A DNA stretch of 64,000 bases from Ectothiorhodospiraceae bacterium BW-2 (GTDB lineage: Bacteria; Pseudomonadota; Gammaproteobacteria; Thiohalomonadales; Thiohalomonadaceae): positions 310,001 through 374,000 of the forward strand of contig CP032507.1 of NCBI GenBank assembly GCA_008375315.1. Direction: 5' to 3'. Below are positions 21,311 through 47,129 of the stretch, piece by piece. The notes below the pieces were generated by a model. The model was not told the origin of the DNA and did not search any database. It saw only the letters and a program-made list of their open reading frames with translations. Position numbers and translations under genes: made by a program. The number at the start of each line of letters is the position of its first letter. The first letter of the stretch is position 1.

Positions 21311-21748
21311 TTATAGCCCATTTTTCGTCATTGAAAATAATTTCAATAAAGCGACCATCAACCAAGCTGGAGCCCTCCCCGCCCGCACCATTGCCAAATT
21401 GACACTCTGACCGGTCGCATCAAACAGCTCTGCCACCCCCCTCCCGTAGCGGTCAGTATCATGGCGTTTCAGGGTAACTTCAGTGCCAATAATCCCCCGC
21501 AAGTGATCCCGACTCTGTTTGCCCCACGGTTTCTGCCCCATTTCGGGGGTGTCAATGCAGTAGAAGCGGGTTTTGATCGTCTCGCCGTTGCAGTTCAGGG
21601 GGGTGGTGTCGCCATCATAGACCGATTTCACGCGGCACGATTGAGGCGCTGTGGCCGGTAACAGTAGCGAGCAGGTGTTGAGCCACGGGGCGATGAGACC
21701 AGTTAGGGCAACAAGCCAGAAAAGGGTCAGACGGGAGCGGTTTGCCAT
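21311..21748 (-). CDS. Thermonuclease (SNase)-like exported nuclease, C-terminus altered
   Basis: An N-terminal signal-like hydrophobic segment (residues about 8-32) is followed by a staphylococcal-nuclease core: RVKSVYDGDTTPLNC, KTRFYCIDTPEMGQKPWGKQSRDHL and HDTDRYGRGVAELF, keeping the catalytic arginine/glutamate residues of the family. The usual continuation after NLAMVRAG (a Y-rich helix) is missing. Instead the frame runs into unrelated sequence, so the last 20 residues are probably the result of a deletion. The nuclease may be impaired. Confidence 0.75.
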   Translation of the reverse strand: MANRSRLTLFWLVALTGLIAPWLNTCSLLLPATAPQSCRVKSVYDGDTTPLNCNGETIKTRFYCIDTPEMGQKPWGKQSRDHLRGIIGTEVTLKRHDTDRYGRGVAELFDATGQSVNLAMVRAGRAPAWLMVALLKLFSMTKNGL

Positions 21749-21775
21749 TGAGATAGCTCTAAACCACTTACTGTG

Positions 21776-22096
21776 TCATGCAAGCGGGCGTTGTCGGATA
21801 TGGGTTCGGTCAACAGTGGTAAATTTCCCTTCCAATACCGCCGGCTCTTGCGGGGTTTGCGGCGCAAAACGCAAATAGACAACACCGGCAGGCTGTGGCA
21901 GGCGGTAACGAAATACCAATTCACCATAATCCCGATCAAAGGTGACAATAACTCTTTGCTCCCGGTGCGCCAAAGCCATCACTTCTTCATCACGACTGCC
22001 CGGCGAGTGCTCTTTAATCGCCAAGACATCGTGTCCCGCTGCCTTAAGTTCGCGGATGGTCGTCAGGGGGATGTTTTCGTTTAACAACCAGCGCAT
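21776..22096 (-). CDS. DUF5615 PIN-like toxin
   Basis: A 106-residue PIN-like protein: MRWLLNENIP (first acidic position), LKAAGHDVLAIKEHSPGSRDEEVMALAHREQRVIVTFDRDYGEL and a beta-strand tail. DUF5615 proteins are ribonuclease-type toxins paired with DUF433 antitoxins. The upstream DUF433 frame overlaps its start by one base, the usual pairing, but that antitoxin has lost its own start (see next entry). Confidence 0.85.
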   Translation of the reverse strand: MRWLLNENIPLTTIRELKAAGHDVLAIKEHSPGSRDEEVMALAHREQRVIVTFDRDYGELVFRYRLPQPAGVVYLRFAPQTPQEPAVLEGKFTTVDRTHIRQRPLA

Positions 22097-22299: not shown

Positions 22300-22442
22300 T
22301 CAACCGCGCCTCTGACGGCGGTTAACTCCTCGCCCATCACCACCACGCTGCCGCTCATGCTATCGACGGCGCGGCTCATCTGGCTGACGGTGGTGGTCAT
22401 GGTCTCAATCGAGCGGGTAATTGCGGCCATATTGTGCTGCAT
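22290..22442 (-). other. Short helical fragment of unknown origin
   Basis: A 50-codon open stretch, methionine-, serine- and threonine-rich and predicted helical (TRSIETMTTTVSQMSRAVDSM). It overlaps both the end of the ADP-ribosylglycohydrolase frame and the headless antitoxin. It looks like a piece of a larger coiled-coil protein left at a recombination junction. Confidence 0.4.
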
Positions 22443-23274
22443 TGCGGGTCGGTACAGCCTCTAAGCCATATACCGCACCCAAAAGTGCACCACAAATAGC
22501 CGCATTAGTATCGGTGTCGCCACCCTGCATAACCGTGTCGATAATCCCCTCTTCCAAAGAGGGCGCACTGAGCAGCTGCCATAATGCATTGTGCCACGCT
22601 ATCATGACCCATCCCATATGACTTTGATAATCCTGAACCGGTATCCGGGCCGCCTTTTCGGTGACCTCTGTCACCTCTGCGGGCAAATCCCACTGCCGTG
22701 CCCAACGAGTAATCTGCTCATAGAGATCAGCACCAGTTGAACCCGATTCAATAGCTGTAGCAATAGCCGCCACATAGAGCTGATTTATGGCAACACAGTT
22801 AGCATGGGGGTGAGTTAGCGCTGCATCGGCAGCCGCCCAGGCACAACGCTGGGTTAAGGGGGTACCTACTGCAACAATGCCAAGAGGAGAAGCTCGCATA
22901 AGCGCTCCGTTCGCCTGACTATCGTGGTTAGGATCACCTGTCAGGGCACGAACAGTTGTGAAGCCGATGTCAAAAGGCTGACTTTGGTACCATCTTTGGT
23001 AGTGAGTCATCGCCCCTGCAGCAGCGTAGTTTGACTCCTCTAGCAGGGAGTTTACTAAAGCTAACGCCATCTCTGAATCATCAGTCGGTTGACCGGCAAG
23101 GGTATTCCATGTCCCCCCATCGACTAACTCCCGAATCCCCTGCGGATAAGCGTTAGCGATCGTTGCAGCGGTTTGAAATTCAACCAAACTGCCGAGCGAG
23201 TCTCCGGCTAATTGGCCTAACCAGGCCCCCTGAGCCCGTTTAAAAATATGTTCGGATAGTGGAGTTGATCTCAT
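22405..23274 (-). CDS. ADP-ribosylglycohydrolase family protein, C-terminus probably replaced
   Basis: Members remove ADP-ribose from proteins, nucleic acids or small molecules using two metal ions. The motifs are present: GAWLGQLAGDSLGSLVEF, QPTDDSEMAL (first metal aspartates) and MQGGDTDTNAAICGALLGAVYG (second). ATG 23274 follows AAGGAC and is preferred to a longer start. After 'GLEAVP' the reading frame enters the helical fragment at 22290-22442, so the native end is lost. The catalytic residues remain. Confidence 0.85.
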   Translation of the reverse strand: MRSTPLSEHIFKRAQGAWLGQLAGDSLGSLVEFQTAATIANAYPQGIRELVDGGTWNTLAGQPTDDSEMALALVNSLLEESNYAAAGAMTHYQRWYQSQPFDIGFTTVRALTGDPNHDSQANGALMRASPLGIVAVGTPLTQRCAWAAADAALTHPHANCVAINQLYVAAIATAIESGSTGADLYEQITRWARQWDLPAEVTEVTEKAARIPVQDYQSHMGWVMIAWHNALWQLLSAPSLEEGIIDTVMQGGDTDTNAAICGALLGAVYGLEAVPTRNAAQYGRNYPLD

Positions 23275-23510
23275 GCTGTTTGTCCTTAGTTTTACAGGCC
23301 CATCAATTTTCAATACCGTATCGTCTATCAAGTACTGGAAGAAGATAAAGTTATCAAAATAATACGTCTTTGGACGCACTATAAATAAGCATAAGTCAAA
23401 TTAACCCGGACGCTTCGCTGTCGCTCAGCGCCGGTTATTTGCAGTGTTAACAACTCAATAATTCCACTCGCATCACTATAAGAGGATAGCAGTAATAGAC
23501 AATTTCATCG

Positions 23511-24725
23511 TTAAGTCAATCTCTTAAATGTTCGTAATGCTGTTTTTTGCTCCTCTATCCATTTTTGCACAAAATCATAGCTCTCCCGGGTTGGCTCTGC
23601 ATTAAACCGGCACTTCATCTGTCCGATGACTATCTTCCTGCGGGTTAAATCTAGCTCCAGCGTAGCGCGCTGCGGCGACAGAACCTGATAGATATAGCTC
23701 TGCCCCTGCTGTACCCGAACGCTATAGCTACCAACACAGTGGTGCATCACTCGCCCCTCCTCCAGTAGCTCAAAATAGTTCGTAACAGGCCGAATCTTCT
23801 CTGTGCCGGCAATAGGGGGGGGTGGAAAGTTAATCTGCTTGTGCAAAGTCGCCATCTTTTGGTTGTAGTGGCGCACAATCTCGTCATGCAGGGCAATTAA
23901 CTGTTCACTATGTTTTAGCCGGTAGAGTTGCCGCTCCCATATCTCTATCTCCAGCTCTTGTGCCATTCGTACCGCATCGCGCCAGAGAGTCCCAATCCGT
24001 CCCAGCTCCCGTTTTAGCAATATAGTTCGGTCAGCCACTGCGGTCTCGCGGCAACTCCCTCGTAAATGCTGTCTCCAACGCGGATTAAGCGCTTCACAGT
24101 GAAACAGATAGCTCTCAGTGGTCGCGTCAATATCGGTTTGGTGCCGCATAGACTCGCTTTCAGGGTGGTTTAACAGCCGCATAATTTGGTTAATCTCTGT
24201 TTGATCGCCCGCTTGAATGGTCATCTTTTTTAGCAGTTTGACCGCCGATTTCGGGCGCTGTTGCACCCATGGGGCGCATTTTCCGGCTAACAGCTGCAGC
24301 AGCAGTTGGTGCTGTTTTTGGCCTAAATCCCGCTTAATGACATCGGCAAGATCACCCGCTGCCATAGCTACCTGCACCCCCCATAACCAAAACAGCACCG
24401 GATTGTCAACGCATAGCTGTGCCGCAAACGGATGCAGCGCGGTCAGGCGAATCAGTCGATATTGGTGATTGCGAACAGGAGAGATCACCTTACGGATCGG
24501 TTCAGGAATAGTCTGTTGCAGCTTGCCCAACGGTGTCTCAGGCGAGACGGCAGGCCAGAGAATCTTTTTGTTGGGTAAATCGGATAGTCGCATCTCACTG
24601 CCGTCAACCCTTTGGCCTATGACGCTAAATCCCTCTTGCCAGCTGCTAAAGTGCAGTGTCAGCGAATCAAATTCAAACGAAAATTCCCCTTGATCAAGGC
24701 GCTGCTCTGTTCTCACGGGCGTCAT
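23511..24725 (-). CDS. PcfJ-like protein
   Basis: The C-terminal third has the PcfJ signature: 'ELLEEGRVMHHCVGSYSVRVQQGQSYIYQVLSPQRATLEL', including the MHHCVGSY core, followed by 'IGQMKCRFNAEPT'. The first 280 residues are a helical region without a recognised domain. PcfJ was named from a conjugative plasmid (pCF10), but chromosomal homologues have no established function. It is the last gene of a close-packed operon with micro-ORFs, a pseudo-FtsZ and a GGCT fusion. Confidence 0.8.
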   Translation of the reverse strand: MTPVRTEQRLDQGEFSFEFDSLTLHFSSWQEGFSVIGQRVDGSEMRLSDLPNKKILWPAVSPETPLGKLQQTIPEPIRKVISPVRNHQYRLIRLTALHPFAAQLCVDNPVLFWLWGVQVAMAAGDLADVIKRDLGQKQHQLLLQLLAGKCAPWVQQRPKSAVKLLKKMTIQAGDQTEINQIMRLLNHPESESMRHQTDIDATTESYLFHCEALNPRWRQHLRGSCRETAVADRTILLKRELGRIGTLWRDAVRMAQELEIEIWERQLYRLKHSEQLIALHDEIVRHYNQKMATLHKQINFPPPPIAGTEKIRPVTNYFELLEEGRVMHHCVGSYSVRVQQGQSYIYQVLSPQRATLELDLTRRKIVIGQMKCRFNAEPTRESYDFVQKWIEEQKTALRTFKRLT

Positions 24726-24731
24726 ATACGG

Positions 24732-24833
24732 CTACAGCCGTGGAGCCTGATATTGGGTCATAAACTGGTCGACAATGGGCTGTAGTTTCTCATCCAAATA
24801 ACCGCGAGCCCGGCTGGCAATAGCATGTAACAT
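24732..24833 (-). CDS. 33-residue micro-protein upstream of the PcfJ-like gene
   Basis: The frame from ATG 24833 to TAG 24732 encodes 33 residues (starts MLHAIASRARGYLDEKL). It has a strong ribosome-binding site (GGAGAGG, 4 bases upstream) and lies 6 bases before the PcfJ-like start, so it is probably translated. It is predicted amphipathic helix. No family is recognised. Confidence 0.55.
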   Translation of the reverse strand: MLHAIASRARGYLDEKLQPIVDQFMTQYQAPRL

Positions 24834-24924
24834 CGCACCTCTCCTATTAGTCCAAGCCTGATTCTGTTGCAGAGCGTAGAAATTCAGTCATCCAGCGGTT
24901 CGTCTCCTCCTCGTGTGGTGATAA

Positions 24925-25767
24925 CTACAGACCCTTACCCCCATGTCCGACTGTCATTGTGACACGCAGCGAATCTGCCGCCATCGACTCATCAACCAGT
25001 GCACCGATTACCCAAGTGGCCTCATCTCTAAACCAATCAGTCATAATATCGCCGACCTCATTAAACAGCTGCACTCCAACCTCCTTGGGTGTGATAAGAG
25101 TGATAGCAACACCCTCGGCCTCAGTCAGATCATACTCCATTGCCTGAATCATCTGTTCAATCTGTTGCGTGGTTTTCGTGGCCAGATTATCGCCACCGGC
25201 CATGCCGAAGCAGGTCACACCGACTGCAATATACTCCATGATGATTCGGATATCGGCAAAATCGATGCAGATAAAGCCGGGCTTGGTAATGAGTTCAACC
25301 ATCCCTTTAATGCTCCAGTAGAGGATCTCCTGTGGTCGGGTCATAATCGCTAGATTGTCCGAGCTGAGTTTCCGATATACAGGAATGACCGATTGCACAG
25401 ATTCAGGGAGTTTGGCGTACACTGTGGCAAATTGTGCCGGATTATCGACCAGCAGATAGAGGCAGCTGATCGCAGCGTATTTGAGTGCCTTTTCGGTTCG
25501 CTGCTCAATATTGGCTATCTCTTCAACCGTTGAGACGATAATCAGCGCGTCCGGTGGCTCCACTTCGGCTTCACTCGCCCCCAACCGGGGTGCCAACACG
25601 GTGTTACCGATAGTGATCGCTTCACTAAATTCGGTCTCAGCCACGAGGCGTTCAAAACCGAAAATACCCCGCTCAATCACGGCATCGACCATCGTCTCAC
25701 TCTGCTCTCCGGCGGCAATAATATTTAACCACGCCTTTTTCGGTGTCACTTCTGCTAAGGGAAACAT
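24925..25767 (-). CDS. FtsZ-like protein lacking the GTP-binding loops (pseudo-FtsZ)
   Basis: The C-terminal half aligns clearly with FtsZ: GMVELITKPGFICIDFADIRIIM (T7-loop region, residues 155-177, keeping the two catalytic aspartates), then 'GVAITLITPKEVGVQLFNEV' and 'ATWVIGALVDESMAADSLRVTMT'. The N-terminal half keeps the layout of the GTPase domain (LNIIAAGEQSETMVDAVIERGIFGFERLVAET), but loop 1 lacks the GGGGGN element and the tubulin signature GGGTGTG is absent near residues 78-88. So it probably cannot bind GTP but could still present a T7 face to a real FtsZ. The TAG at 24925-24927 is followed in frame by 25 codons to TAA 24847, including NRWMTEFLRSATESG, which resembles the FtsZ C-terminal peptide (IPAFLRKQ). 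Confidence 0.8.
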   Translation of the reverse strand: MFPLAEVTPKKAWLNIIAAGEQSETMVDAVIERGIFGFERLVAETEFSEAITIGNTVLAPRLGASEAEVEPPDALIIVSTVEEIANIEQRTEKALKYAAISCLYLLVDNPAQFATVYAKLPESVQSVIPVYRKLSSDNLAIMTRPQEILYWSIKGMVELITKPGFICIDFADIRIIMEYIAVGVTCFGMAGGDNLATKTTQQIEQMIQAMEYDLTEAEGVAITLITPKEVGVQLFNEVGDIMTDWFRDEATWVIGALVDESMAADSLRVTMTVGHGGKGL

Positions 25768-25783
25768 ACGCTTTGGCCTCTAT

Positions 25784-25876
25784 TCACTCGCTGTCTGAAA
25801 ATTGGTTCAACTCATCCACCCTCTGCTCCAGTTGGGCAATATCCTCTCTGACTAACTCCCGCGCACGGGTTAGCAT
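25784..25876 (-). CDS. 30-residue micro-protein upstream of pseudo-FtsZ
   Basis: ATG 25876 to TGA 25784 encodes an acidic amphipathic helix (RARELVREDIAQLEQRVDEL). It sits 11 bases after the GGCT-fusion stop and 16 bases before the pseudo-FtsZ start, with a GGGGAG site upstream. The spacing pattern supports translation. It has a heptad-like arrangement and might bind a partner by coiled coil; that is inference. Confidence 0.5.
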   Translation of the reverse strand: MLTRARELVREDIAQLEQRVDELNQFSDSE

Positions 25877-25887
25877 CACACACTCCC

Positions 25888-26685
25888 CTACAGTTGATGA
25901 TAGCGATAGCCGGCTTCAATGTGACCCCGATAAGCCGGTGTGGGTTCAGCCCCTTCAATCAATTGTTCCGGTTGAGCGATATAGACCTGTGCAAACTCAA
26001 TGGCCGGATTTTCGCTGTAAAACGGCAGAGCAATGCGCCGGTAGTGGTTGGGAACCCCTTCATACCCATCCAGAGTGGCCATCTGCTCCCGGCTTAACCG
26101 GTAGGCCACCGCCGGACACCGTTTATTCGCGTCATGGCCGATATTGGCGTAACAATTGCCGGACGAATGGCTGGCTGCTTTATTAAAACGCAGTGTAAAT
26201 CCGGGCAGCACTCCCGCCTGCCACTCAGTAACCGTGCCAACCCGATCCATTAGTCGATTAGGATCGAGATTGGAGCCATAGGCGACCACCCATTGCTCAT
26301 CGCTCTGCTGTTCCAACAGATAGCGGCGGTAATCGCCACACCCGATTGCGGTTTTCCCCGCAACCGAACAGTTGTAGCGATACAGCTCAACCGTGTGAAT
26401 GGATCCGTCAGCCAACAGCGTCGCTTCAGTTTGCTGACGCAGATAGTGCGAGCTGGCAGGGTGTGTCGGGTTAACCCCCTCAATCTGATCCAGTTGTTGC
26501 AGAGTCGCCTCATTGACTCGATAGATTTCACCGACAATGGATTGCTGACCGGCTAACAGACCGGGAAAGTAGCCTAAATCGAATAACTCGCCGTTAACTG
26601 TCGCCAGACCGAGGTAGTCGCCCGTCTTGAGAGCCGAGTGTAAATTCAAACCGCGTAGTAGCGTGCCATAGACAAATATCACCAT
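25888..26685 (-). CDS. Tandem gamma-glutamylcyclotransferase-like (GGCT/AIG2) fusion
   Basis: Two GGCT-type barrels are fused. The N-terminal one (residues about 1-115) opens with VIFVYGTLLRGLNLHSAL and has GEIYRVNEATLQQLDQIEG. The second (about 128-265) opens with VVAYGSNLDPNRLMDRVG and has 'CPAVAYRLSREQMATLDGYEG', where the conserved acidic residue of the family is kept. Single domains are the norm. Members cleave gamma-glutamyl peptides with 5-oxoproline release, but many have unknown substrates. ATG 26685 has AGGAG 6 bases upstream and is preferred to ATG 26703. Confidence 0.82.
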   Translation of the reverse strand: MVIFVYGTLLRGLNLHSALKTGDYLGLATVNGELFDLGYFPGLLAGQQSIVGEIYRVNEATLQQLDQIEGVNPTHPASSHYLRQQTEATLLADGSIHTVELYRYNCSVAGKTAIGCGDYRRYLLEQQSDEQWVVAYGSNLDPNRLMDRVGTVTEWQAGVLPGFTLRFNKAASHSSGNCYANIGHDANKRCPAVAYRLSREQMATLDGYEGVPNHYRRIALPFYSENPAIEFAQVYIAQPEQLIEGAEPTPAYRGHIEAGYRYHQL

Positions 26686-26708
26686 TCTCTTCTCCTCATT
26701 CATCGTAG

Positions 26709-26930
26709 TTATAGCGCTGCCGTAAAGCCAATCGACTGTAGTTTCGGTCCCGGTTTAACGGCGCACTCCTTTTTCAGCCCCTGATAAAGAACTTCGTTAG
26801 TCGAGCAGATGAAAATGCTGTCAAACTGCTCCTCATCCAGTAGCAGCACCGCCTCGTCCTGCTCTGCCTGTTGAAACATCTGCGCGATGGCCTGTTCGCT
26901 CTCGCCGACATAGTAACCCCTGCTCCAGTG
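26709..26930 (-). pseudogene. Relic of an AAA+ ATPase with internal deletions
   Basis: Reading toward lower coordinates the frame shows YYVGESEQAIAQMFQQAEQ, then the Walker B VLLLDE, then directly EQFDSIFICSTN (sensor 1), then LKKECAVKPG...IGF, the usual C-terminus of this AAA type. The stretches between these landmarks (about 40 and 60 residues in relatives) and the whole P-loop region are missing. Its stop is 23 bases upstream of the GGCT-fusion start, so it was probably the first gene of the same operon. Confidence 0.7.
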
Positions 26931-27179
26931 TGGAGTCCGAGCTGTTTAGCACTGGGGGTGACCTTATCGGAAGTGTTGTTCATTTTCATAAATAAGGACA
27001 TTATCGCTCTCCTGTTGGCTCTGGCAATGGTGGGAGTATAGCCGGTTATGCGCCAGAAAAAAGAGTTCAGCCAACGCTATAAGACACTATTTGTCGCATT
27101 GTGTTACAGTAAGCGCAACAATCCGGCTTGCGGCTGATAAACTTTTTAAACGACCATCTCTTCCGGTAATCCACGGCGT

Positions 27180-30435: not shown

Positions 30436-32841
30436 TTACTTTAGCTTTTTAGGATCAGTTGAAGCAGTCTCATCACTACTGACACTATAATCTACCGTAT
30501 CAATAGCACGAGTCTGAAACCCTGCCGATGGCGATACCGCCGGCACAGGTTTGCTAGCGGCTTTAGCCCCTCTTCCACGACGCGCCCAGAGAAAACTTCG
30601 GTAGGTCAAAGCCGTGATAATAATGAATACCACTAACAAAATAAGTTTCGGTACCCATTGATGAATCAATCGAACCAACCATTTCGGTGCCCACTCATAC
30701 TCTGTGGCAAACTGGACTAAATCGGCATCTCTTAGCTCATCGTAACTATACCCCTGTTGAACTAACGCAATGGCTGCGGTGGCTAGTTTACGCGCAGCCT
30801 CACCCGCGATCGGATCGGGATAGTAGTAGCGATAGAGCGCTACCCCCTCTCGACCTAGTTGTTGATAGAGAGAGAGAAGCTGTGGATCCCGATGCAGCTG
30901 TTGAACTAGCTGCTCTTGTGTTCCCCCCTGCTGCCGCTCTTCAGCCACATAGCGTTGCAACGCACTAACCGTGCCCTCTTCCCGCAGCAATTGATGAAGC
31001 TTGGCATAATTTAAGCTTTCCAACAGCTGTAAGGTAAACTCCGGCTCTGTCCGATAGAGCGACATCAATTTATCGACTAGTGGGGTATCAATCCCATTGA
31101 CCAGCTCGGTTACACTCCACTGCTGTACAACCGCTTTAATCACTTCGCACCCCCCTTCATTGCAACGCTGCTGTAGCTGTGGTAACAGTGCCGGTTGCGA
31201 TAGCAGTGGCATTAGTTTAGCCTGATTGATACCCGACTGGTGCAGTAGCCGCACTGCCTCTTCATGCTGCGATAGTGTTTCAAAACGGGTCACACTCCAT
31301 CCACGATCTTGCAGATCTAGCTCAAGCCTTATCGCCAGACTAAAACCCTTTTTCGCGGTTAATGAGGCGTGTTGCAGTTGATGTTGTCGAAACTGTTGCA
31401 GCGTATTGGGTAACGATCGCTTCGCCTCAATCAGCCAAGCAGTCGGCTCAATCCCCATCACAAAAGAGCTCTCAAGTAACAGGGCTCCATGCTGCTCATA
31501 CAGCGGCCAAAACTGATCCCGATATTGGCTAACCACTTTACCAATAAACTGCGATGGCGCACCGGTAGGAAGCTGCGTCATAAGGTGCTGCATCTGCTGT
31601 GGTGCTAAGTAGCGCATCGCCTCAATCCCAAACTGCTGCCCCATAGCCACAATATCTTTAGCGATATGCTCCATTAAATCCCCGGCTTCGAGTCGCGCGT
31701 TAATGTAGCTATTAATACAGGGGTTAACCAAAACCAACTCCGGTAGCGTTAATAGCTGATTAATCTCATCACTTACTTGATGCTGTACCCGATTCAAACC
31801 GTTAAACACTATACTGTATGCACTATTTTGATCGTTGTGATCATTGGTAAAGTCGATGAAGGTTGCCGGAGCTAGGTTGGCGCGATAGACCTGCATAAAC
31901 CCTTCACGCAACTCCTGCTCCATGCCCTCTTTAGCGTGTGCAGCACTCCAGGCATCTCCGGCAATGAGCACCCACCCTAAAATAGGAATCATCTTTGAGG
32001 CCACGCCCCCGACAACTTTACCGGCCACAGAGCGGACAATAACACGCTGCATGGTGCGGTTCATGGCCAAAATAATGGCACCAACCATCGCGTTTCCGAT
32101 GTCAGGTATATCCCCTTGAGATAGCTCAGAACTATTTCTGATATCGTTAAGCTGTTGCTGTTTGCTCACATTTAAGGTTGCCAGATAAATCGTTTCCGGT
32201 TGTAGTGAGGGAAAATAGTCGTTGGTCAGGGCAGCAATCTCATTAGCTAAGCGCTCGGTCTCCTCATCGCGTAAACGCTGGACTTCTGGTCCGAACTGGC
32301 GCACCTGCTGCTCAATAAACTGAGTCTGTAGTGGCTTAATTTTATCAATAGCTTTCTCAGAAAAGTTATCAATAATGACTGTTAGCTTTTCATTAATCTC
32401 TTCATCCTCTAAATCACAGTTCTTAAACCAGCACTTTACCGTGTTTTTTACGGTTCCCCAAAATGTATCCATCTTTGCTGAGATAACATCCATGCTACTC
32501 TGTTCAATTGTGATTTGGTTTAATTCAGACTCCAACTCAGAATAGAAGTCATTAAACTGCTGCTGCACCTCTGGCTGAAACCAGTAGCGTTCAAACTTGG
32601 CCACGATTCGTGTCTCATAGCCACTCATATCTAACTGAAACAGTTTGTCTCTTAACTCATTGCGTTTAAGACGGGAAGCACTAAGCAAATCAGCTAACTG
32701 CGAGCCGCTAAGCGGTTCAACATCTTTCACCATACAATTTTTCGAATTAGACGGTGGTGTATCAGATGGCTCTAATGTATCGGCGTAACTGCTGTTTATT
32801 AATAAAAACAACCCCAAAAATAACAGCAACTGATATTTCAT
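30436..32841 (-). CDS. Large exported protein with C-terminal membrane anchor, unknown function
   Basis: ATG 32841 (GGAG 8 bases upstream) gives a classical signal peptide (MKYQLLLFLGLFLLINSSYA). About 700 helical, glutamine-rich residues follow with a small hydrophobic patch around 'AMVGAIILAMNRTMQRVIV' and a glycine-rich 'GKVVGGVASKMIPILGWVLIAGDAWSA'. A single membrane span lies near the C-terminus (KLILLVVFIIITALTYRSFL) before a basic cytoplasmic tail. I do not recognise the family. The upstream extension to 32922 is rejected because the signal peptide and ribosome-binding site fit 32841. Confidence 0.65.
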   Translation of the reverse strand: MKYQLLLFLGLFLLINSSYADTLEPSDTPPSNSKNCMVKDVEPLSGSQLADLLSASRLKRNELRDKLFQLDMSGYETRIVAKFERYWFQPEVQQQFNDFYSELESELNQITIEQSSMDVISAKMDTFWGTVKNTVKCWFKNCDLEDEEINEKLTVIIDNFSEKAIDKIKPLQTQFIEQQVRQFGPEVQRLRDEETERLANEIAALTNDYFPSLQPETIYLATLNVSKQQQLNDIRNSSELSQGDIPDIGNAMVGAIILAMNRTMQRVIVRSVAGKVVGGVASKMIPILGWVLIAGDAWSAAHAKEGMEQELREGFMQVYRANLAPATFIDFTNDHNDQNSAYSIVFNGLNRVQHQVSDEINQLLTLPELVLVNPCINSYINARLEAGDLMEHIAKDIVAMGQQFGIEAMRYLAPQQMQHLMTQLPTGAPSQFIGKVVSQYRDQFWPLYEQHGALLLESSFVMGIEPTAWLIEAKRSLPNTLQQFRQHQLQHASLTAKKGFSLAIRLELDLQDRGWSVTRFETLSQHEEAVRLLHQSGINQAKLMPLLSQPALLPQLQQRCNEGGCEVIKAVVQQWSVTELVNGIDTPLVDKLMSLYRTEPEFTLQLLESLNYAKLHQLLREEGTVSALQRYVAEERQQGGTQEQLVQQLHRDPQLLSLYQQLGREGVALYRYYYPDPIAGEAARKLATAAIALVQQGYSYDELRDADLVQFATEYEWAPKWLVRLIHQWVPKLILLVVFIIITALTYRSFLWARRGRGAKAASKPVPAVSPSAGFQTRAIDTVDYSVSSDETASTDPKKLK

Positions 32842-33077
32842 GACACACACTCCAAAGTTGAATAAAATTAACAATTTTACTTTCATTCTTTTAGTGAACA
32901 CTGTAACGACCCACAAAATCAAAGGGCACTACAGCCGAAATGACCCGCTCTGACAAAGAGGTTCTTTTTCAATTCACTTGCTAGCAGTCTGGGACGGAAA
33001 GGAGAAAAACAGAGGGTATCTCCCTGCGGTAAAATGTGACAATTTGCCGTCATCGCACGCAACCGAAAGGAGTACCC

Positions 33078-33391: not shown

Positions 33392-34942
33392 TCAAGCCAG
33401 TAACCTGTCATGGTAAACTGTCTCATCATTGGCAGCCGCTATTTTGGCCGGGAGAACGGGAAAGCGCTTCTGCTGCTCCCGCTGAATATAGAAAGGGATA
33501 AAGTCGTCCCATAACCCGCTGGCATGAACCGAACGCAATGCGAGCACGGCATTGGCACCATCCATAGTCCAACGCATTCCGGACTGCTCCATGCGATCTT
33601 TGACGACACTGCGGCAAGCCCCTTCAATTACGCCTGAGGCAATCGGGTAACCCTTCTCTAAATATTCGTTGTATTTCATACGGTTTTCGTTCGCCGTAAA
33701 GTAGTTAAAAATTTTCTCCAACTTATCCCTATCCGCTTTTATCAGCCCATTGCGCGAGGCGATATACTTCAATGACCGGAGCACGACCGGTAATTCACCC
33801 GACAAAATGCGTAGCAACTGCTTTTGATACAGCGCTGAAGCCTGTGGGCTTTTTTTAGGATGGATAAGGTGAACAGCCTCCCATAAGTAGCCATTAACAT
33901 GCATAATATCGAGGATTTCCACGATATTGAACGCTTTATGCGGCAAATAGTCCTCACCCGCTTCCCACAGTGACGGTTGCCCATCGCACAGCAGAATCGT
34001 CGGTTTTTCTCCGTCAGGATTGCGGGTGACAAGCTCCCCTTTAAGCCATTGGTATCCCTCCTTCGTTTGGCCATGCGTGGTACCGGCCTCATTGCGCTGC
34101 AAAATGGCCCGGACACGTTTAAAGCAGGGTTTGGGACGAGAGGGAAAATCGTCCTTAGGCAATCGCTCCCCCATCAGGATACTGCACATCTGCTTGGGGG
34201 TACGGATATAAGGGTCAACGCTATAAACGGCCGTTACTAAAGCCATTTTTTTCTCCCCTTTACGCTTATCAGACTCCTTGCCTTTGGTCGATTTGGGGAG
34301 GCCTGGCTGCTCCTCTCTCCTCATCGCAACGCCTTTATGATCGGCCTGTAAGACGAATAACTCGGCTTCTTTCTCCGCTAAAGGCGGTGAGAGCGTGTTC
34401 ATGAACTCAGGAGCCGCCTCACTCATCTGTAAACAGCTGCGCTCCAGGCTATTCACTGACTGAGATAGATGGAATATTTTTTTGATAATCTCTGCCACTT
34501 TATTATATGGCTCCCCCTGAACGAACGACTGATCCCAGTTCTGTAATAGATAGGAGAAGACGCTTTCAGGCAGCTGCAGTTGGTGGTCGAGCGGGATAAA
34601 TTCGATTTTCTGACCCGCCCGGGTTCCGTAAACCACCCGCGAAATGGTGAACCGGCCAAAAATTGAGCAGTACTGGCGTGTGTGTTCAGTCGGCAGCCGG
34701 TTCAGCTCAGTTCCATCTGCCATCTCAAGAGTACTGCCTTGATCTCCATTACCCATCCTCGCAATGTGACATGCCATTGCCTGACGACCCATTTCCAGTA
34801 AGGCATCCAAAATATTCTGCTCCGTCTCGTGCAGCGGTTCCCCGTTCTCTTGCGCTGAATTTAGACAGGTTTTCAGTGCGGCGGGAAGATTATCAATATC
34901 TGAAGGATTGATTTCAATAGGATTTTCTGTCATCTTGGTCAT
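33392..34942 (-). mobile_element. ISKra4-family transposase gene
   Basis: A complete 516-residue transposase. Diagnostic segments: 'LFVLQADHKGVAMRREEQPG' (catalytic aspartate region), 'LLCDGQPSLWEAGEDY', 'ILDIMHVNGYLWEAVHL' and the C-terminal 'KGYPIASGVIEGACRSVVKDRMEQSGMRWT', which is the ISKra4 hallmark. Start at 34942. The ends of the element are not obvious; flanking DNA belongs to the ATPase relic. Confidence 0.85.
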
Positions 34943-40822: not shown

Positions 40823-41905
40823 TTAAGGCAGTTCAGTTGCCGGACCAATATGGAGCGTACGGCGCACCTGTTCGTTACGAAAGCCAAGAAAACTGGCGCG
40901 GCGCACGCCGGGTACCACCACCACATCATAGAGCTCTGTCACCACGCCCGAGATATGGAGCCAGTGCTCAATATGGCCGGTATCCAGATTGACTACATAG
41001 AGACCACACCTCGCCTCCACATCTTTCTGTTTCAGCCTCTCATCCAGCGGCAGGCCACTAAAGGTGCGGTTATGGCGCGGCTTAGAGAGGCCGACCACCG
41101 CCCAGTTATCGATAAACGACAGCCCGCGCAGATAGCCGGGCAGAAACACCTTCGGCTCAAATTCACCGCTATCCAGATTCACGGTGCCTAGCTCGCCAGT
41201 GCCTGAGTTCGCCACCCAGAGCTGATCACGATACCAGCGCGGCGAGTGGGGCATCGACAGGCCACGGCAGATGACCTCATTACGAGCAACATCGATCACC
41301 ACTCCGCCATCGCTGCGGTGTTCACGCCAGCCATCGACCACATCACTCTCACTCACAGCGGTAACATAGGCCACCTTACCCTCGCGCATGGCCAGACCGT
41401 TAAGATGGCAGCGATCTTCCGGAGCCAAATCGCTCAAAAACGGCGGCTGCCACATCGGCGCAAAGCTGTGGTGCGCATCGGTAGTGGCAATACAGCCAAA
41501 CAGGGTATTAATAAATAGCGGCTCTCCTCGGCTATCGAGATTTAGATCGTGAATATCGATATCACCGGTCACATAGCCCGCCTGTGGAATATACTGCCGG
41601 TCAAACCCCTCAACTTGCTGCCCCGGTGGTAGCGAATTAACAAAGCGGTAGAGGGTATAGAGGGTGCTGAGCCAAATCTGATCGCCATCGACATAGAGCC
41701 CCATAGGCCGGTCAAAGGTTCGCTCAAACACCGCCATCTCGCCGGCGGGATTGGTACCAATAAAGAAGAGCTTACCACTCTGGTAAGTGGTAAAAGCGAG
41801 TGAACTGCCACGCTCTGCCAGCCAGCTAGGAAACTGGCGTGAGGAGAAGAGTTCAAACCGAGGGGTCCCCTCCCCTGCTGCCACTGTTTGGCTGTTTTCA
41901 TCCAC
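40823..41905 (-). CDS. TIGR03032/DUF4915 family beta-propeller-like protein
   Basis: A 360-residue protein of the TIGR03032 family, found beside type I secretion and RTX-adhesin systems. It is strand-rich with repeated patterns such as 'LFFIGTNPAGEMAVFERTFDRPMGLYVDGDQIWLSTLYTLYRF', 'HLNGLAMREGKVAYVTAVSESD' and 'MPHSPRWYRDQLWVANSGTGELGTV'. The family's role is unknown. It follows the HlyD gene on the same strand by about 107 bases. Confidence 0.85.
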   Translation of the reverse strand: MDENSQTVAAGEGTPRFELFSSRQFPSWLAERGSSLAFTTYQSGKLFFIGTNPAGEMAVFERTFDRPMGLYVDGDQIWLSTLYTLYRFVNSLPPGQQVEGFDRQYIPQAGYVTGDIDIHDLNLDSRGEPLFINTLFGCIATTDAHHSFAPMWQPPFLSDLAPEDRCHLNGLAMREGKVAYVTAVSESDVVDGWREHRSDGGVVIDVARNEVICRGLSMPHSPRWYRDQLWVANSGTGELGTVNLDSGEFEPKVFLPGYLRGLSFIDNWAVVGLSKPRHNRTFSGLPLDERLKQKDVEARCGLYVVNLDTGHIEHWLHISGVVTELYDVVVVPGVRRASFLGFRNEQVRRTLHIGPATELP

Positions 41906-42012
41906 ATTAATATACCCTTGGGTTAATCTTTATAAAAATCTATTCGTTAATCTGTTTTAAAGGCAGATGATGCGAGGAACATAACTGAGGATTGATGGTA
42001 CGCTGTCGCAAT

Positions 42013-43227
42013 CTACCGCTCCCCGAACGACTGGCTCAAAGTTTTACGAATCGGCTTTAGCAGCACATCAATCAGGCTGCGCTCACCGGTACGAATATCG
42101 ACCTGAGCTGTCATACCGGGGGTGAGCATCAGCACACGGCCAATGGTCGTGGTTACCTGACTACTGGCTGTCTGTAGATGGACCCGATAGTAGATCTCCT
42201 CACCGTTAGCCCCCTTCTCCTTCAAAGTATCGGCACTAACATAGACCACCTCCGCCACCACACCGCCGTAGATGGTATAGTCAAACGGATCGAGCCGCAG
42301 CGTCGCACTCAGCCCCGGTGCAATACGGGCAATATCGGCCGGGCTGACTTTAGCTTCAATCAGTAGCTTATCATCGACCGGCACAATCTCCATCAACGCA
42401 TCACCGCTACGAAGCACCCCGCCTACGGTAGTAATCGCAATATTTTTGACAATACCACTTAATGGCGTAATCAGCGTACTATCTTCCAACTGCTGCCGCC
42501 GCTGGGTCAGAATCTGCTCGTTTTGTGCCATCTCATCTTCAATTTTGGCCAGCTCACTACTCACCTCTTCAAAGAAACGGTTACGGCGGTTAATCGGCTT
42601 CGCTTCGGCCTCATTCAGCGCCCGTTCGGCCCGAATCACCTCGCTGCGGTTACTGTCGCCACGCTGCTCTAACTGGCGGATGAGCTTTAGCTCCTCTTTT
42701 GCTAAAGCGACCGCCTCACTCATATTGGCCAGTTCGGTCTTTAAACCGTCACGACGCTGCACAAACAGTGCCGTCTCCAGCTCGGTCAGTTCGCTATAGT
42801 GTTCGGTTAAGCCCGCCGGAAAGCTGAGCCGCCGCTGACCGGTCACCTCCGCTTTCAGCCGTGCTGCTTTCGCCTGTAGTGCCGCTAACCGCGCCTCGAT
42901 CTCTTTAACTGCGGCACCAATGCGGGTCTCATCGAGCCGGGCAACCACCTGCCCCGCTTCCACCCGATCTCCCTCCCGTACTGGCAGCTCACGCAACACC
43001 CCGCCATCGACCGCTTGAATCACCTGAGTGCGACTACTGGCAATCACCTCCCCCTGTCCGCGTGCCACCTCGTCGATCATAAAGCGATTGGCCCAGTAAA
43101 CGGCAGCGATAAGTGCCGTCAATAAAAGCAGTATCAGTCGTGAGTGGTGGTGATCAGCATAGCGCTCCAGCCGCTCGGCCCGTTTACGGTTGCGTACCTC
43201 TTCATCATCAAATAGCTCAGACCACAT
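42013..43227 (-). CDS. HlyD-family periplasmic adaptor of a type I secretion system
   Basis: A membrane-fusion protein linking the inner-membrane ABC transporter to TolC. It has a short cytoplasmic N-terminus, one membrane span (residues about 32-50), a biotinyl-lipoyl half-motif ('GVLRELPVREGDRVEAGQVVARLDETRIGA'), a long coiled-coil hairpin (residues about 110-250) and the second half ('DSTLITPLSGIVKNIAITTVGGVLRSGDALMEIVP'). The C-terminus 'RVLMLTPGMTAQVDIRTGERSLIDVLLKPI' is typical. Its start overlaps the ABC gene end by 11 bases. Confidence 0.93.
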   Translation of the reverse strand: MWSELFDDEEVRNRKRAERLERYADHHHSRLILLLLTALIAAVYWANRFMIDEVARGQGEVIASSRTQVIQAVDGGVLRELPVREGDRVEAGQVVARLDETRIGAAVKEIEARLAALQAKAARLKAEVTGQRRLSFPAGLTEHYSELTELETALFVQRRDGLKTELANMSEAVALAKEELKLIRQLEQRGDSNRSEVIRAERALNEAEAKPINRRNRFFEEVSSELAKIEDEMAQNEQILTQRRQQLEDSTLITPLSGIVKNIAITTVGGVLRSGDALMEIVPVDDKLLIEAKVSPADIARIAPGLSATLRLDPFDYTIYGGVVAEVVYVSADTLKEKGANGEEIYYRVHLQTASSQVTTTIGRVLMLTPGMTAQVDIRTGERSLIDVLLKPIRKTLSQSFGER

Positions 43228-45421
43228 GGTTCACCCCTCCTGCGAATACCGCCCCCCTTTGCGGTGCGACACGCTGTGTCTGTAGCTGCTGTAGAATCTG
43301 TTGTGGCGTGCCATCTTGCACCACCTTGCCCTGCTGAATCACGATAGCCCGATTGGCCACGGTCGCGGCAATCACCGGACGGTGGGTGGCAAACAGCACT
43401 ATATCCTCCTCACGCAGATAGTGGCTCAAAACCGCTAAAGCGTTGCGTTCGCTATCACTATCGAGTGAAGCGGTCGGCTCATCCATCAGCCAGATTCGGG
43501 GACGCGCCATAATCAGCCGCGCCAGTGCCACCAACTGACGCTGACCACCGGAGAGGCCATCGCCCCCCTCGCTAATCTCCAGCTCCATACTCTGCGGATT
43601 ATCGGCAGCAATGCGATCCACCCCCAGCGCATGGCACACCTCCAGAAAGCGGTTATCATCAACCGCGCCCGATAGTGCCAGATTGCTACGCAGTGTCCCC
43701 TTAAACAGATGCACTGTCTGTGGCAGATAGCCGACAAAGTTATTCACCAGTTGCGGCTCCATCTGCCACATATCGCCTTCACCTAATGTCACCCGCCCCT
43801 CGGTTGGACGGTAGAGACCGGCCAGCAGCTTCAGCAGGGTCGATTTACCCCCCCCTACCGATCCGATCAGCATCACCCGATCGCCCGCTTTAAACTGTAG
43901 CTGTTCGATATCGACCTGTTTCACCGGCGAGTTAGGGTAGCTAAAACGCACCCGATCCAGCGCTATTTGGGTGGGTGGCTGATCCGGCGTCAGTAGTCTC
44001 TGCCCCGGCTGCCGCTCCGACTCTATTTTCAGTAGTTGATTGACCATCTGTAGTGCCTGAGTCACGGAGTGCCAGTGGCTTAGCTGCTGAATCCCCTGCG
44101 CCACTGGGGCGATGACCCGTCCGCCTAAAATGGAGCAGGCGATCAAACCGCCCATGGTCAGGCTGCCCGCCTCAATCAGGGTCACCCCGACCACCACCGC
44201 ACTAACATAGGCCGAAGTCGCCAAAGTACTGGTGGTCACCGTCGCAAAGTTACTAATCGACTTTTGGCGCAAATGATAGTGCGCCACGGTTTCGGTCAGC
44301 TGATGCCACTGCTCATTAAAGCGCCAACCGGCGTTATTGGCGCGAATCGTTTCGGCACCGCGCAGAGTATCGACCAGCATCCCCTGTCGTTCATGAATGC
44401 GCTGTAGCTGCTGCTGAAACAGCCGCCGCAGCCGGATTTGGGTGATAAACCCGATAAGGATCGCCAGCGGCAGCAGAAGCAGATAGACCCAAGCGATATT
44501 GCCGCCAATGGTGGCGATAAGGGCGATAAACAGTAGCGCAAACGGCATATCGATAAGTACGAAAATAACCCCAGAGGAGAAGAATTGGCGCACGCTGTCG
44601 AGCCCCCCGACCTGCGAGGCGACCACACCGGTCGATTTCGGTTGCAGATCGATGCGCAGCCGCAGCAGATGGTCAAACACCTGCGCACTCACACTGCGAT
44701 CGGCGCGACTAGCGACACTATCGAGTACCCGCGCCCGGTAGGTCTTTAATAACCAGTCGAGCCCGACCACCCCCGCCATGCCCGCCACCAGTGTCCACAG
44801 GGTGGCATAGGCGAGGGTCGGCACCACTCGATCGTAAACCTGCATCGCAAACAGCGAGGTGGAGACCGCCAGCAGGTTAATCACCAATGTCGCAATCATA
44901 ATATCGCGCAGCCAGCCGGTTTTGGCAAACAGTGCCCGCCACACCATACGGGCGGCGATATTACGGCTAGAGAAGAGCGCCGTCTCCGCCTCCGGCTGCT
45001 GCACCCGCAGCCACAGCACCACCGCCTCATCCAACGCTGCATCAGCGGGGGTTATCGTCTCCCCCTCAGCGGTTATAAAACGCGGGGTCTCCTCTCCCGC
45101 TGCAACCAATAACCACTGGCCATCGAGCCAGAGCAGTACCGGCAGCTTACGCTGATCAAAGCGGCGCCAAAGTAGCTGTGCCGGCTGTACACCACGCAGT
45201 TTAAGCTGTTTAATCAGGCCATTTAGCCGTTGCAGAAGTGGGGTTTCAGCCGGAAGCGTCTGCTCAATCTGCGCCACTGCACGACGCCAAGCCCCTCGGC
45301 TCACGCTAATTTTAAGCAGGGCAAAGAGCTGCTGTAGTAACTCAGCTGGCGGCGGTGGCAGAGGCGCGTTCGGGGTGGTTTCACTCAAAATCACTACCCG
45401 CCATAACCGAATCAAACTCAC
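43217..45421 (-). CDS. Type I secretion ABC transporter (peptidase-like N-terminus, permease, ATPase)
   Basis: The 734-residue protein has a degenerate C39-like N-terminal domain (about 1-150), a six-span permease region (about 165-450), and an ATPase domain with Walker A (GSVGGGKSTLLKLL), signature LSGGQRQLVALARL and Walker B RIWLMDEPTASLD. The length and arrangement are of the LssB/LapB type that exports very large adhesins. GTG 45421 is given; another GTG at 45394 would shorten the overlap with the TolC gene to 14 bases. Confidence 0.93.
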   Translation of the reverse strand: MSLIRLWRVVILSETTPNAPLPPPPAELLQQLFALLKISVSRGAWRRAVAQIEQTLPAETPLLQRLNGLIKQLKLRGVQPAQLLWRRFDQRKLPVLLWLDGQWLLVAAGEETPRFITAEGETITPADAALDEAVVLWLRVQQPEAETALFSSRNIAARMVWRALFAKTGWLRDIMIATLVINLLAVSTSLFAMQVYDRVVPTLAYATLWTLVAGMAGVVGLDWLLKTYRARVLDSVASRADRSVSAQVFDHLLRLRIDLQPKSTGVVASQVGGLDSVRQFFSSGVIFVLIDMPFALLFIALIATIGGNIAWVYLLLLPLAILIGFITQIRLRRLFQQQLQRIHERQGMLVDTLRGAETIRANNAGWRFNEQWHQLTETVAHYHLRQKSISNFATVTTSTLATSAYVSAVVVGVTLIEAGSLTMGGLIACSILGGRVIAPVAQGIQQLSHWHSVTQALQMVNQLLKIESERQPGQRLLTPDQPPTQIALDRVRFSYPNSPVKQVDIEQLQFKAGDRVMLIGSVGGGKSTLLKLLAGLYRPTEGRVTLGEGDMWQMEPQLVNNFVGYLPQTVHLFKGTLRSNLALSGAVDDNRFLEVCHALGVDRIAADNPQSMELEISEGGDGLSGGQRQLVALARLIMARPRIWLMDEPTASLDSDSERNALAVLSHYLREEDIVLFATHRPVIAATVANRAIVIQQGKVVQDGTPQQILQQLQTQRVAPQRGAVFAGGVNHVV

Positions 45422-46700
45422 CCGCTAACACCATGAGTGTGACGGTGGCATTGAGCCACTCACTCCCGGCTTGGGCCAGCTTTAGCTGCTGTTCATTCAC
45501 TTCGCGCTGCATATTAAGCAGCTCCAACCACGACTTTTTACCAAAACGATACTGACGCTGATAGGAGTCGAGCGTCTGCTGTAGCGCCTGTACCGACTGT
45601 TGATAACCTGTCACCAACTGCTGTTGCTGGGCTTGAGTGGCTAACAGATGTTGCACTTTGCGTTGCAGCTCATTACGGCTCACCTCCCAGTCGTACAGAC
45701 GCGCCTGCCGCCGCGCCTCAGCCGCTGCAATTTTGCCCCGGGCGCTCAGTCCGAGTCCGTCCAGGCTCCCCTCCACCCTTAGCAGCGCTTGCGTGTCGTA
45801 GTCGCTGCTCTCGGTTAGATGCTGTACCGCCTGTAGCGACAGCGTCGGATAGCGGGCGACCCGCTCGCGCTCAATGCTCTGCGTTGCGAGCTGCTGCTGC
45901 TGCTCTTTATAGGCTAACAGCGCGCTACGCGCTAGGATTGCGTTTAACAACTGCGCCTCATCGTGGCGTTCTAACCCTGCTACACTCACCGGTAGGGTGC
46001 TATCAACAGCTATCTGAGTCAGGGAGATGAGCTCATTTTCGGCTAACCGCAGCTCCCCCTGCAGCTGACTCAGATGACTTTGGGCATCAATAATGCGTGA
46101 TTGGGCTAATACCACATCGGCCTCACTCGCCATCTGCCCCTGTTGACGACTAACAATCTGCTCATAGAGCTGCTGATGGGCGACAATATTGGCTTCGCTC
46201 AGAGTAATGCGTTGCCTGATTCCGGTAATATCGAGATAGGCGGTCGCAGTCTGCTCCAGTAGCTGCTGCCAGATTCGCACCTTATCGGCCTGTTGCACGC
46301 GTTGATCTTGTTGAGCATAACGAATACTACTGTCGATCTTATCAAACGCCCACAGCGGTTGGGTCAGCTGCAGTGCACCGAGCGAATCGCCACTATCATC
46401 AACCCCCGCCTGCACCATCGCGGTCGGGTAGCGTGCGGCTTTTGCCGAGGCGACCTCCGCCTCAGCAGCAGCGATCTCTGCCGTCTTACCCCGTAGTGCC
46501 GGATGGTGGGTTAGTGTCATGAGCATGGCCTGTTTCAGCCCCTCTAGTGACGCGACAGTCATCTCGGCAGGGAGGTGAGCTGTCTGAGCTGTGTTCTCTT
46601 CTGCTACTACAACGGTCGCACTATCATCCTGTAGCGCTGCGTTAATCTGTAGCGAAATAAGCAGCAGGCTTAACAACAACTGATATCTTTTTTTCAGCAT
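45381..46700 (-). CDS. TolC-family outer-membrane channel of the type I system
   Basis: A signal peptide (MLKKRYQLLLSLLLISLQINA) precedes two repeats of an outer-membrane efflux domain, rich in alanine, glutamine and leucine with long helices: 'ALRGKTAEIAAAEAEVASAKAARYPTAMVQAG' and 'QSIERERVARYPTLSLQAVQ'. ATG 46700 has an AGGAG site and is preferred to TTG 46703. The gene leads the operon TolC-ABC-HlyD-TIGR03032. No adhesin substrate is found in the window. Confidence 0.9.
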   Translation of the reverse strand: MLKKRYQLLLSLLLISLQINAALQDDSATVVVAEENTAQTAHLPAEMTVASLEGLKQAMLMTLTHHPALRGKTAEIAAAEAEVASAKAARYPTAMVQAGVDDSGDSLGALQLTQPLWAFDKIDSSIRYAQQDQRVQQADKVRIWQQLLEQTATAYLDITGIRQRITLSEANIVAHQQLYEQIVSRQQGQMASEADVVLAQSRIIDAQSHLSQLQGELRLAENELISLTQIAVDSTLPVSVAGLERHDEAQLLNAILARSALLAYKEQQQQLATQSIERERVARYPTLSLQAVQHLTESSDYDTQALLRVEGSLDGLGLSARGKIAAAEARRQARLYDWEVSRNELQRKVQHLLATQAQQQQLVTGYQQSVQALQQTLDSYQRQYRFGKKSWLELLNMQREVNEQQLKLAQAGSEWLNATVTLMVLAGEFDSVMAGSDFE

Positions 46701-46703
46701 CAA

Positions 46704-47129
46704 TAACTGCTCCTAAAAACCTAGTCAAAATGGCTCATAGCAGTTTCCAGGCAATTCGTTCTCTCGATTCATCTATGGTTATAACTGCTTGTTGCATAAT
46801 ATCACCTCCTCTAATCTGGCTGGGGTATCTGTTATTGCTACTGCTCACTACAGGTCATGGAGAATACCATCATCTCAGCATAACAACAAAAGGGAATGTC
46901 CGGAAGGTATCTCGCTAACCCGTGATCCGACCTATAATGACAAACCCGTCTAGCGGCAGATCGAGACCAGCTACATCAGCTACACACTACAGCGGATAAC
47001 GAAAAGTGGCAGCGCCCCGGTATGGTGCGCTGGCTGCATCGACAGGCAGGATTTGAGCCTCTTCAGGTTAACGAGGGAGCGCAGATCTTTGTTCGCAGGT
47101 TTGGACTCTCTTTCACCAGCCCGCTAGTG
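46704..47129. other. 426-base gap between the TolC and sulfotransferase genes
   Basis: A plus-strand stretch at about 46999-47134 reads 'EKWQRPGMVRWLHRQAGFEPLQVNEGAQIFVRRFGLSF' without a convincing start and may be a gene remnant of unknown kind. Nothing else is recognised. This gap should contain the promoter of the TolC operon. Confidence 0.4.

Follow-up and report, generated by a model that had tools for sequence, protein, structure and literature searches.

A minus-strand operon in the genome of Ectothiorhodospiraceae bacterium BW-2 was found to carry a 280-amino-acid (aa) protein related to FtsZ, referred to here as pseudo-FtsZ. The operon lies within a window of 64,000 nucleotides (nt; G000:C1:310001-374000) of the 4.07-Mb single-contig genome, and positions given without a prefix refer to this window. 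Sequence comparison confirmed that the open reading frame (ORF) is a real, full-length, highly diverged FtsZ paralogue by descent, and it supported the view that the predicted protein has retained the T7/C-terminal face of FtsZ and lost the GTP-binding loops. We tentatively propose that pseudo-FtsZ may cap or poison FtsZ polymers through this face, a role that we favor over the alternatives and consider possible rather than probable.

FtsZ homology and the lost nucleotide pocket

The FtsZ_C domain (PF12327) was matched in pseudo-FtsZ barely over the gathering score (Pfam, 4e-6). Residues 145-272 matched FtsZ structures in the PDB (E about 1e-14), and residues 142-273 scored 85-87 bits against a 26-protein FtsZ profile; the TIGR00065 equivalog score was below the cut-off (59 bits vs 295, NCBIfam). 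In an ordinary profile search, the N-terminal half alone was unconvincing, with a score of 4 bits that 10 of 2000 shuffles also attained. With the start codons aligned, no gap is needed to fit the first 47 residues to FtsZ; none of 200,000 shuffles and none of 7,065 real 47-mers taken from the window's other proteins did as well, and every other register was negative. This ungapped N-terminal fit shows pseudo-FtsZ to be a whole FtsZ by descent, minus the pocket, rather than a stray domain. A weak "DDR swiveling" match (0.05) in the same protein was treated as chance.

The residues kept and lost were compared with those that are near-invariant in FtsZ. The T1 glycines were substituted in register (GVGGGGGNA to AAGEQSETM), and the T3 and T4 loops were deleted in the alignment, with GGGTGTG absent. 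Near-invariant residues were kept at 1 of 12 positions in S1-T1 and 2 of 12 in T4. Over S1-T1, T2, T3, T4, T5, and T6 together, 12 of 60 were kept, versus 27 of 50 over H7, T7, and the C-terminal strands (Fisher p=3e-4, calculated on residues, which are not independent, with the regions picked from known FtsZ anatomy and H8-H9 excluded). The T7 loop reads ICIDFADIR with both aspartates (D169 and D172) present, and the T7 motif and H10 rank among the best-kept parts. The protein stops just past the last core strand, and both the C-terminal linker and the tail, including the conserved tail peptide for FtsA/ZipA, are absent; the host FtsZ retains LDIPAFLRRQAD. A preliminary description of the locus had called the protein a pseudo-FtsZ, and this status was borne out, the homology being beyond chance and both GGGTGTG and the T1 glycines missing. 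Its further claim that the T7 loop aspartates and the C-terminal domain were kept held as well, with the correction that nothing of the T7 NxD motif beyond the two aspartates is retained, its asparagine now being a cysteine.

The host carries a normal ftsZ elsewhere (G000:C1:1647202), flanked by ftsA-like and lpxC-like frames, and division is therefore presumably independent of the pseudo-FtsZ copy, whose gene sits outside the division cluster. The motif FNEVGDI is common to pseudo-FtsZ and the host FtsZ; it hints at an origin by duplication within the lineage and is too short for proof. A tree failed to place pseudo-FtsZ, with an end branch of more than 6 changes per site and an odd composition. 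Such extreme divergence, together with the lost C-terminal tail, the poorly kept H8-H9, and an operon of non-division genes, would fit an FtsZ fold that is reused apart from division and does not bind FtsZ, for example as a scaffold or a regulatory partner of the PcfJ-like or gamma-glutamyl-cyclotransferase-like (GGCT) protein encoded beside it. However, the T7 motif and H10 are among the best-kept parts, and a protein serving as a scaffold alone would have no need of them; we consider reuse of this kind rather unlikely.

Open reading frame and distribution

In simulations with substitutions alone, no more than 0.05% of such ORFs were still open once identity had fallen to about 37%, and drift to 37% identity introduced a mean of more than 7 stops, frameshifts not counted. 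The codon use and position-specific GC of pseudo-FtsZ resembled those of native genes. Since the open frame is unexpected under drift and the codon use is native-like, we take pseudo-FtsZ to be a gene formerly under selection. If it were instead a decaying FtsZ duplicate, chance would have spared the pseudogene's reading frame in a locus already falling apart, with a decayed AAA+ gene and tiny ORFs as leftovers. The deletion of the AAA+ gene, a broken second PcfJ-like copy in the same genome, and the failure to find an orthologue would fit such decay, whereas 280 codons free of stops and frameshifts at such divergence, native codon use, and retention concentrated on one face all speak against it, and we give it little credence.

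Searches with the N-terminal half of pseudo-FtsZ found no orthologue in the 20 family or the 369 class genomes, and a search of 398 phylum genomes with the full-length protein gave none either, its best matches (66-71 bits) being ordinary FtsZ. Scanning about 85,000 species genomes and viral contigs for sequence patterns, an approach limited to close relatives, likewise found none, and plasmids, phages, and order genomes yielded ordinary FtsZ only. Homologues with normal GTP-binding loops, which the preliminary description had named as a refutation, were thus not found besides ordinary FtsZ. A 281-aa match in genome G019 was rejected as an orthologue, being a contig-end fragment of a normal FtsZ. 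Pseudo-FtsZ is an orphan within the limits of these searches.

The operon and its neighbors

The genes follow one another on the minus strand in the order AAA+ relic, double GGCT gene, 30-31 aa ORF, FtsZ-like gene, 33-aa ORF, and PcfJ-like gene (Table 1), as the preliminary description had claimed. Intergenic gaps were 5-16 nt across the locus, with one exception: the FtsZ-like gene and the 33-aa ORF are about 91 nt apart, and a possible 14-aa ORF lies between them. The 33-aa ORF stops 6 nt ahead of the PcfJ start, and translational coupling of the two is possible. The tiny ORFs had no significant relatives in the same genome. The number of promoter-like matches in the region was not clearly above chance.

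Table 1. Positions of the operon genes and adjoining features in the window
Feature	Position	Strand	Remarks
Promoter-like match TTGCCA-16-GATAAT	27000-27027	-	10/12; best in the region; ahead of the AAA+ relic
Relic of two-domain AAA+ ATPase	about 26712-27001	-	Blocks aligned to the intact 701-aa paralogue
Double gamma-glutamyl-cyclotransferase-like (GGACT/AIG2) protein, 271 aa	25888-26703	-	Pfam GGACT 1e-28
Tiny ORF, 30-31 aa	25784-25879	-	Putative coding; probably helical; good ribosome site
FtsZ paralogue (pseudo-FtsZ), 280 aa	24925-25767	-	T1, T3, T4 lost; H7, T7 D169 and D172, H10, C-terminal domain present
Possible 14-aa ORF MTEFLRSATESGLD	24847-24891	-	Putative coding; GAGGAGGAG ahead; in the gap 3' of the FtsZ-like gene
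Tiny ORF, 33 aa	24732-24833	-	Putative coding; with AGGAGAGG site
PcfJ-like protein, 404 aa	23511-24725	-	Pfam PF14284 2e-15
ADP-ribosylglycohydrolase, DraG fold	22405-23379	-	Pfam 2e-57; TDDSE and GGDTDT motifs kept

By alignment to an intact 701-aa paralogue in the same genome, the AAA+ gene is a deletion relic, in agreement with its earlier description as decayed. What remains of it aligns with residues 527-555, 582-594, and 674-701 of the paralogue, and perhaps also with a short N-terminal piece, where the match is weak; nearly all of residues ~27-527 and two further internal blocks are gone. The intact paralogue (G000:C1:3681-5786) is of the phrog_10401 type and a classical AAA protein, with bpMoxR below cut-off, and it lies beside a tyrosine-type phage integrase (G000:C1:3681-6940, L044). 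Plasmid relatives of the AAA+ protein neighbor WYL, DUF2779, macro-domain, Sir2, and BREX genes, and no FtsZ-like gene was found around them. A two-domain GGCT relative with 46% identity was found in family genome G015, not adjacent to an FtsZ-like gene. Two checks suggested in the preliminary description gave negative results: the same gene order was not found in other genomes, and neither was an operon with an intact AAA+ gene, the intact AAA+ relatives sitting in other neighborhoods.

We know of no role assigned to PcfJ-like proteins. Relatives were rare: the 369 class genomes yielded 4 that carry one, counting the source, and the 20 family genomes yielded 2. The window's ADP-ribosylglycohydrolase gene is intact and probably starts at 23274, about 236 nt beyond the PcfJ-like gene; this enzyme may be part of the locus and is likely a functional neighbor of it. 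It matched the NCBIfam models for DRAG (1e-36) and Tri1 (1e-19), both under cut-off. In family genome G012 (L177:1601-4128), the start of a PcfJ gene overlaps the end of an ADP-ribosylglycohydrolase gene whose product matches the Tri1 core. Neither enzyme passes the Tri1 model NF041672 (window enzyme 70 bits, G012 enzyme 312 bits, cut-off 490), and the G012 enzyme aligns from model position 66 without the N-terminal occluding extension of Tri1. A HIRAN-domain gene precedes this pair and AbiE-like genes follow it, the latter recognized by by-eye similarity to a Pfam-matched AbiEii of L047. A conserved PcfJ/ADP-ribosylhydrolase pair is possible.

On a Myxococcales contig (L056:9194-12657), a PcfJ-like gene overlaps the start of a two-domain AAA+ gene whose product is 44% identical to the 701-aa paralogue of the window relic. 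The second PcfJ-like copy in the source genome (G000:C1:258018-259136; L036:8018-9136) is broken by one TGA and one TAG and directly adjoins a DRT2-type defence reverse transcriptase (L036:6669-8012), and other PcfJ relatives adjoin AbiE, GmrSD, and restriction genes; these contexts are few cases, taken without a background-rate comparison. In a survey of 79 PcfJ loci, PcfJ was mostly alone and no FtsZ-like gene was found. From its neighbors, we read the operon as a conflict-type locus.

Such a setting would also suit a decoy. Pseudo-FtsZ would then soak up FtsZ-directed toxins or phage inhibitors that target the C-terminal/T7 face, and the ADP-ribosylglycohydrolase would strip ADP-ribose from FtsZ, as Tri1 does against the FtsZ-modifying toxin Tre1. 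A decoy fits the pattern of loss and retention as well, because the kept domain is what SulA, MciZ, and MinC-N bind (PMC5624674) and because a decoy function has been suggested for inactive copies of enzymes in conflict systems with rare FtsZ/tubulin effectors (PMC7159879). The pairing of PcfJ and ADP-ribosylglycohydrolase here and in G012, with overlapping genes and a Tri1 core score of 312 bits in G012, and the defence-type genes near several PcfJ genes point the same way, and the enzymatic partner adds weight to an immunity role since Tri1 reverses FtsZ ADP-ribosylation (PMC7827354). However, both enzymes fall under the Tri1 cut-off, and the Tre1 target Arg174 (PMC7827354) aligns to a Lys in the host FtsZ, in a segment that is shortened in pseudo-FtsZ. 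No attacker is known, the window enzyme may be a separate unit given its distance from the PcfJ-like gene, and a decoy need not keep the catalytic aspartates. We regard the decoy as unlikely in this form.

Other features were noted around the locus. An imperfect inverted repeat AACCGGCGCTGAGCGACAGCGAAGCGTCCGGGTT, present as a single copy in the window, lies between the PcfJ-like and ADP-ribosylglycohydrolase genes at 23403-23436, and an ORF of the staphylococcal nuclease type and a DUF5615 PIN-like ORF (21311-22096) adjoin the ADP-ribosylglycohydrolase. Farther away are an ISKra4-type transposase (33392-34942) and an 828-aa protein with no Pfam, NCBIfam, or PHROG match (30436-32922). Genes for a DUF4915 protein, an HlyD-family protein, an ABC exporter, an outer-membrane efflux protein, and a TPR-sulfotransferase protein lie on one strand at 40823-49826, in what looks like a type I secretion locus.

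Filament capping and comparison with known systems

In FtsZ filaments, hydrolysis is triggered when a subunit places its T7 loop in the GTP pocket of its neighbor; T7 marks the minus end and the pocket the plus end, and mutant FtsZ subunits as well as MciZ are described as capping filament ends (PMC5624674). In the capping mechanism we propose, an accessory FtsZ paralogue would have been converted to a one-faced subunit, keeping the minus-end face (H7, T7 with both catalytic aspartates, H10, and the C-terminal strands) and losing its nucleotide pocket at the plus end together with the tail that serves as membrane anchor. Since T7 is kept and the pocket is lost, such a subunit could bind the nucleotide end of a filament and block its extension. 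It would dock via T7 on an exposed GTP-bearing filament end or on an FtsZ monomer, no later subunit could join, and Z-ring polymers would be capped or poisoned while the operon is on. The GGCT, PcfJ-like, and ADP-ribosylglycohydrolase neighbors would control the timing of pseudo-FtsZ production or activity, in a conflict-type locus from which the AAA+ gene has since been deleted. The expression of pseudo-FtsZ, its binding to FtsZ, the capping itself, and the functional tie to the neighbors are steps that we infer. The complete picture, a nucleotide-free FtsZ serving as a dominant Z-ring end-cap (or molecular decoy) in a previously undescribed AAA+/GGCT/PcfJ/ADP-ribosylglycohydrolase conflict operon, seems to us somewhat doubtful.

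Several observations weigh against capping. Only 4 of 21 near-invariant residues are kept in H8-H9, and the asparagine of the T7 NxD motif (Asn207) is replaced by Cys167. The loss of the AAA+ gene suggests that the locus may be partly defunct, and no orthologue was found elsewhere that would show the retention pattern under selection. The association of PcfJ with ADP-ribosylglycohydrolase, with AAA+, and with defence genes makes decoy or immunity a serious rival to the division-inhibiting or division-sensing module of the preliminary description. Structure prediction was of little help: with FtsZ rows, AlphaFold2 returned an FtsZ-like order of elements (predicted local distance difference test [pLDDT] 61, predicted template modelling score 0.50) whose top Foldseek matches were FtsZ, a partly circular result, and with rows on the C-terminal half only, the N-terminal half failed to fold (pLDDT 54). 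Confidence was low in both models, neither of which tips the balance or was taken as proof.

Compared to FtsZ (TIGR00065, PF12327), pseudo-FtsZ is collinear from the first residue and has H7, the T7 aspartates, H10, and the C-terminal strands in common with it, and differs by the loss of T1, T3, T4, the T7 asparagine, the linker, and the C-terminal tail. FtsZl1 and FtsZl2 (Makarova and Koonin 2010, PMC2875224) are likewise divergent members of the FtsZ superfamily, with FtsZl1 found in operons with non-division genes. However, both carry a GGGTG(S/T)G loop that pseudo-FtsZ lacks, and FtsZl1 is without the ordinary FtsZ C-terminal domain that pseudo-FtsZ has (PMC2875224). The two families are defined by a coiled coil (FtsZl1) and a long C-terminal region (FtsZl2; PMC2875224), and pseudo-FtsZ belongs to neither. 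In vWA-MoxR (VMAP ternary) systems, homologues of division proteins, rarely FtsZ/tubulin, serve as effectors; many are inactive, and a decoy role has been proposed (Kaur et al. 2020, PMC7159879). These systems resemble the present locus in placing a division-protein homologue in an AAA+-bearing conflict locus, but the AAA+ relative here is of a different, classical type with only a relic left, and Pfam scans of the locus genes found no MoxR AAA+, vWA, or VMAP gene.

The Tre1/Tri1 pair, an FtsZ-ADP-ribosylating toxin and its immunity protein (Ting et al. 2018, via PMC7827354), likewise joins an ADP-ribosylglycohydrolase with FtsZ biology. However, no toxin gene was recognized here, the enzyme is below the Tri1 cut-off, and no pseudo-FtsZ is known from the Tre1/Tri1 system. 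The outcome that pseudo-FtsZ may have in common with SulA, MciZ, and CbtA is the blocking of protofilament ends; those inhibitors have unrelated folds (PMC5624674), whereas pseudo-FtsZ would be the subunit itself in a defective form. Earlier work has already mentioned degenerate FtsZ paralogues and effectors that resemble FtsZ (PMC2875224, PMC7159879), and an FtsZ-like/PcfJ operon was not found in a literature search of partial coverage.

If true, the proposed role would show a cytoskeletal gene turned into its own inhibitor or shield, and would provide a testable function for the PcfJ-like proteins that recur beside ADP-ribosylglycohydrolase, AAA+, and defence genes. A natural one-faced FtsZ subunit would also be a convenient tool in the debate over which end of the filament grows. 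To our knowledge, the FtsZ regulators known so far have mostly unrelated folds, and capping by pseudo-FtsZ, if demonstrated, would represent a new way of controlling FtsZ.

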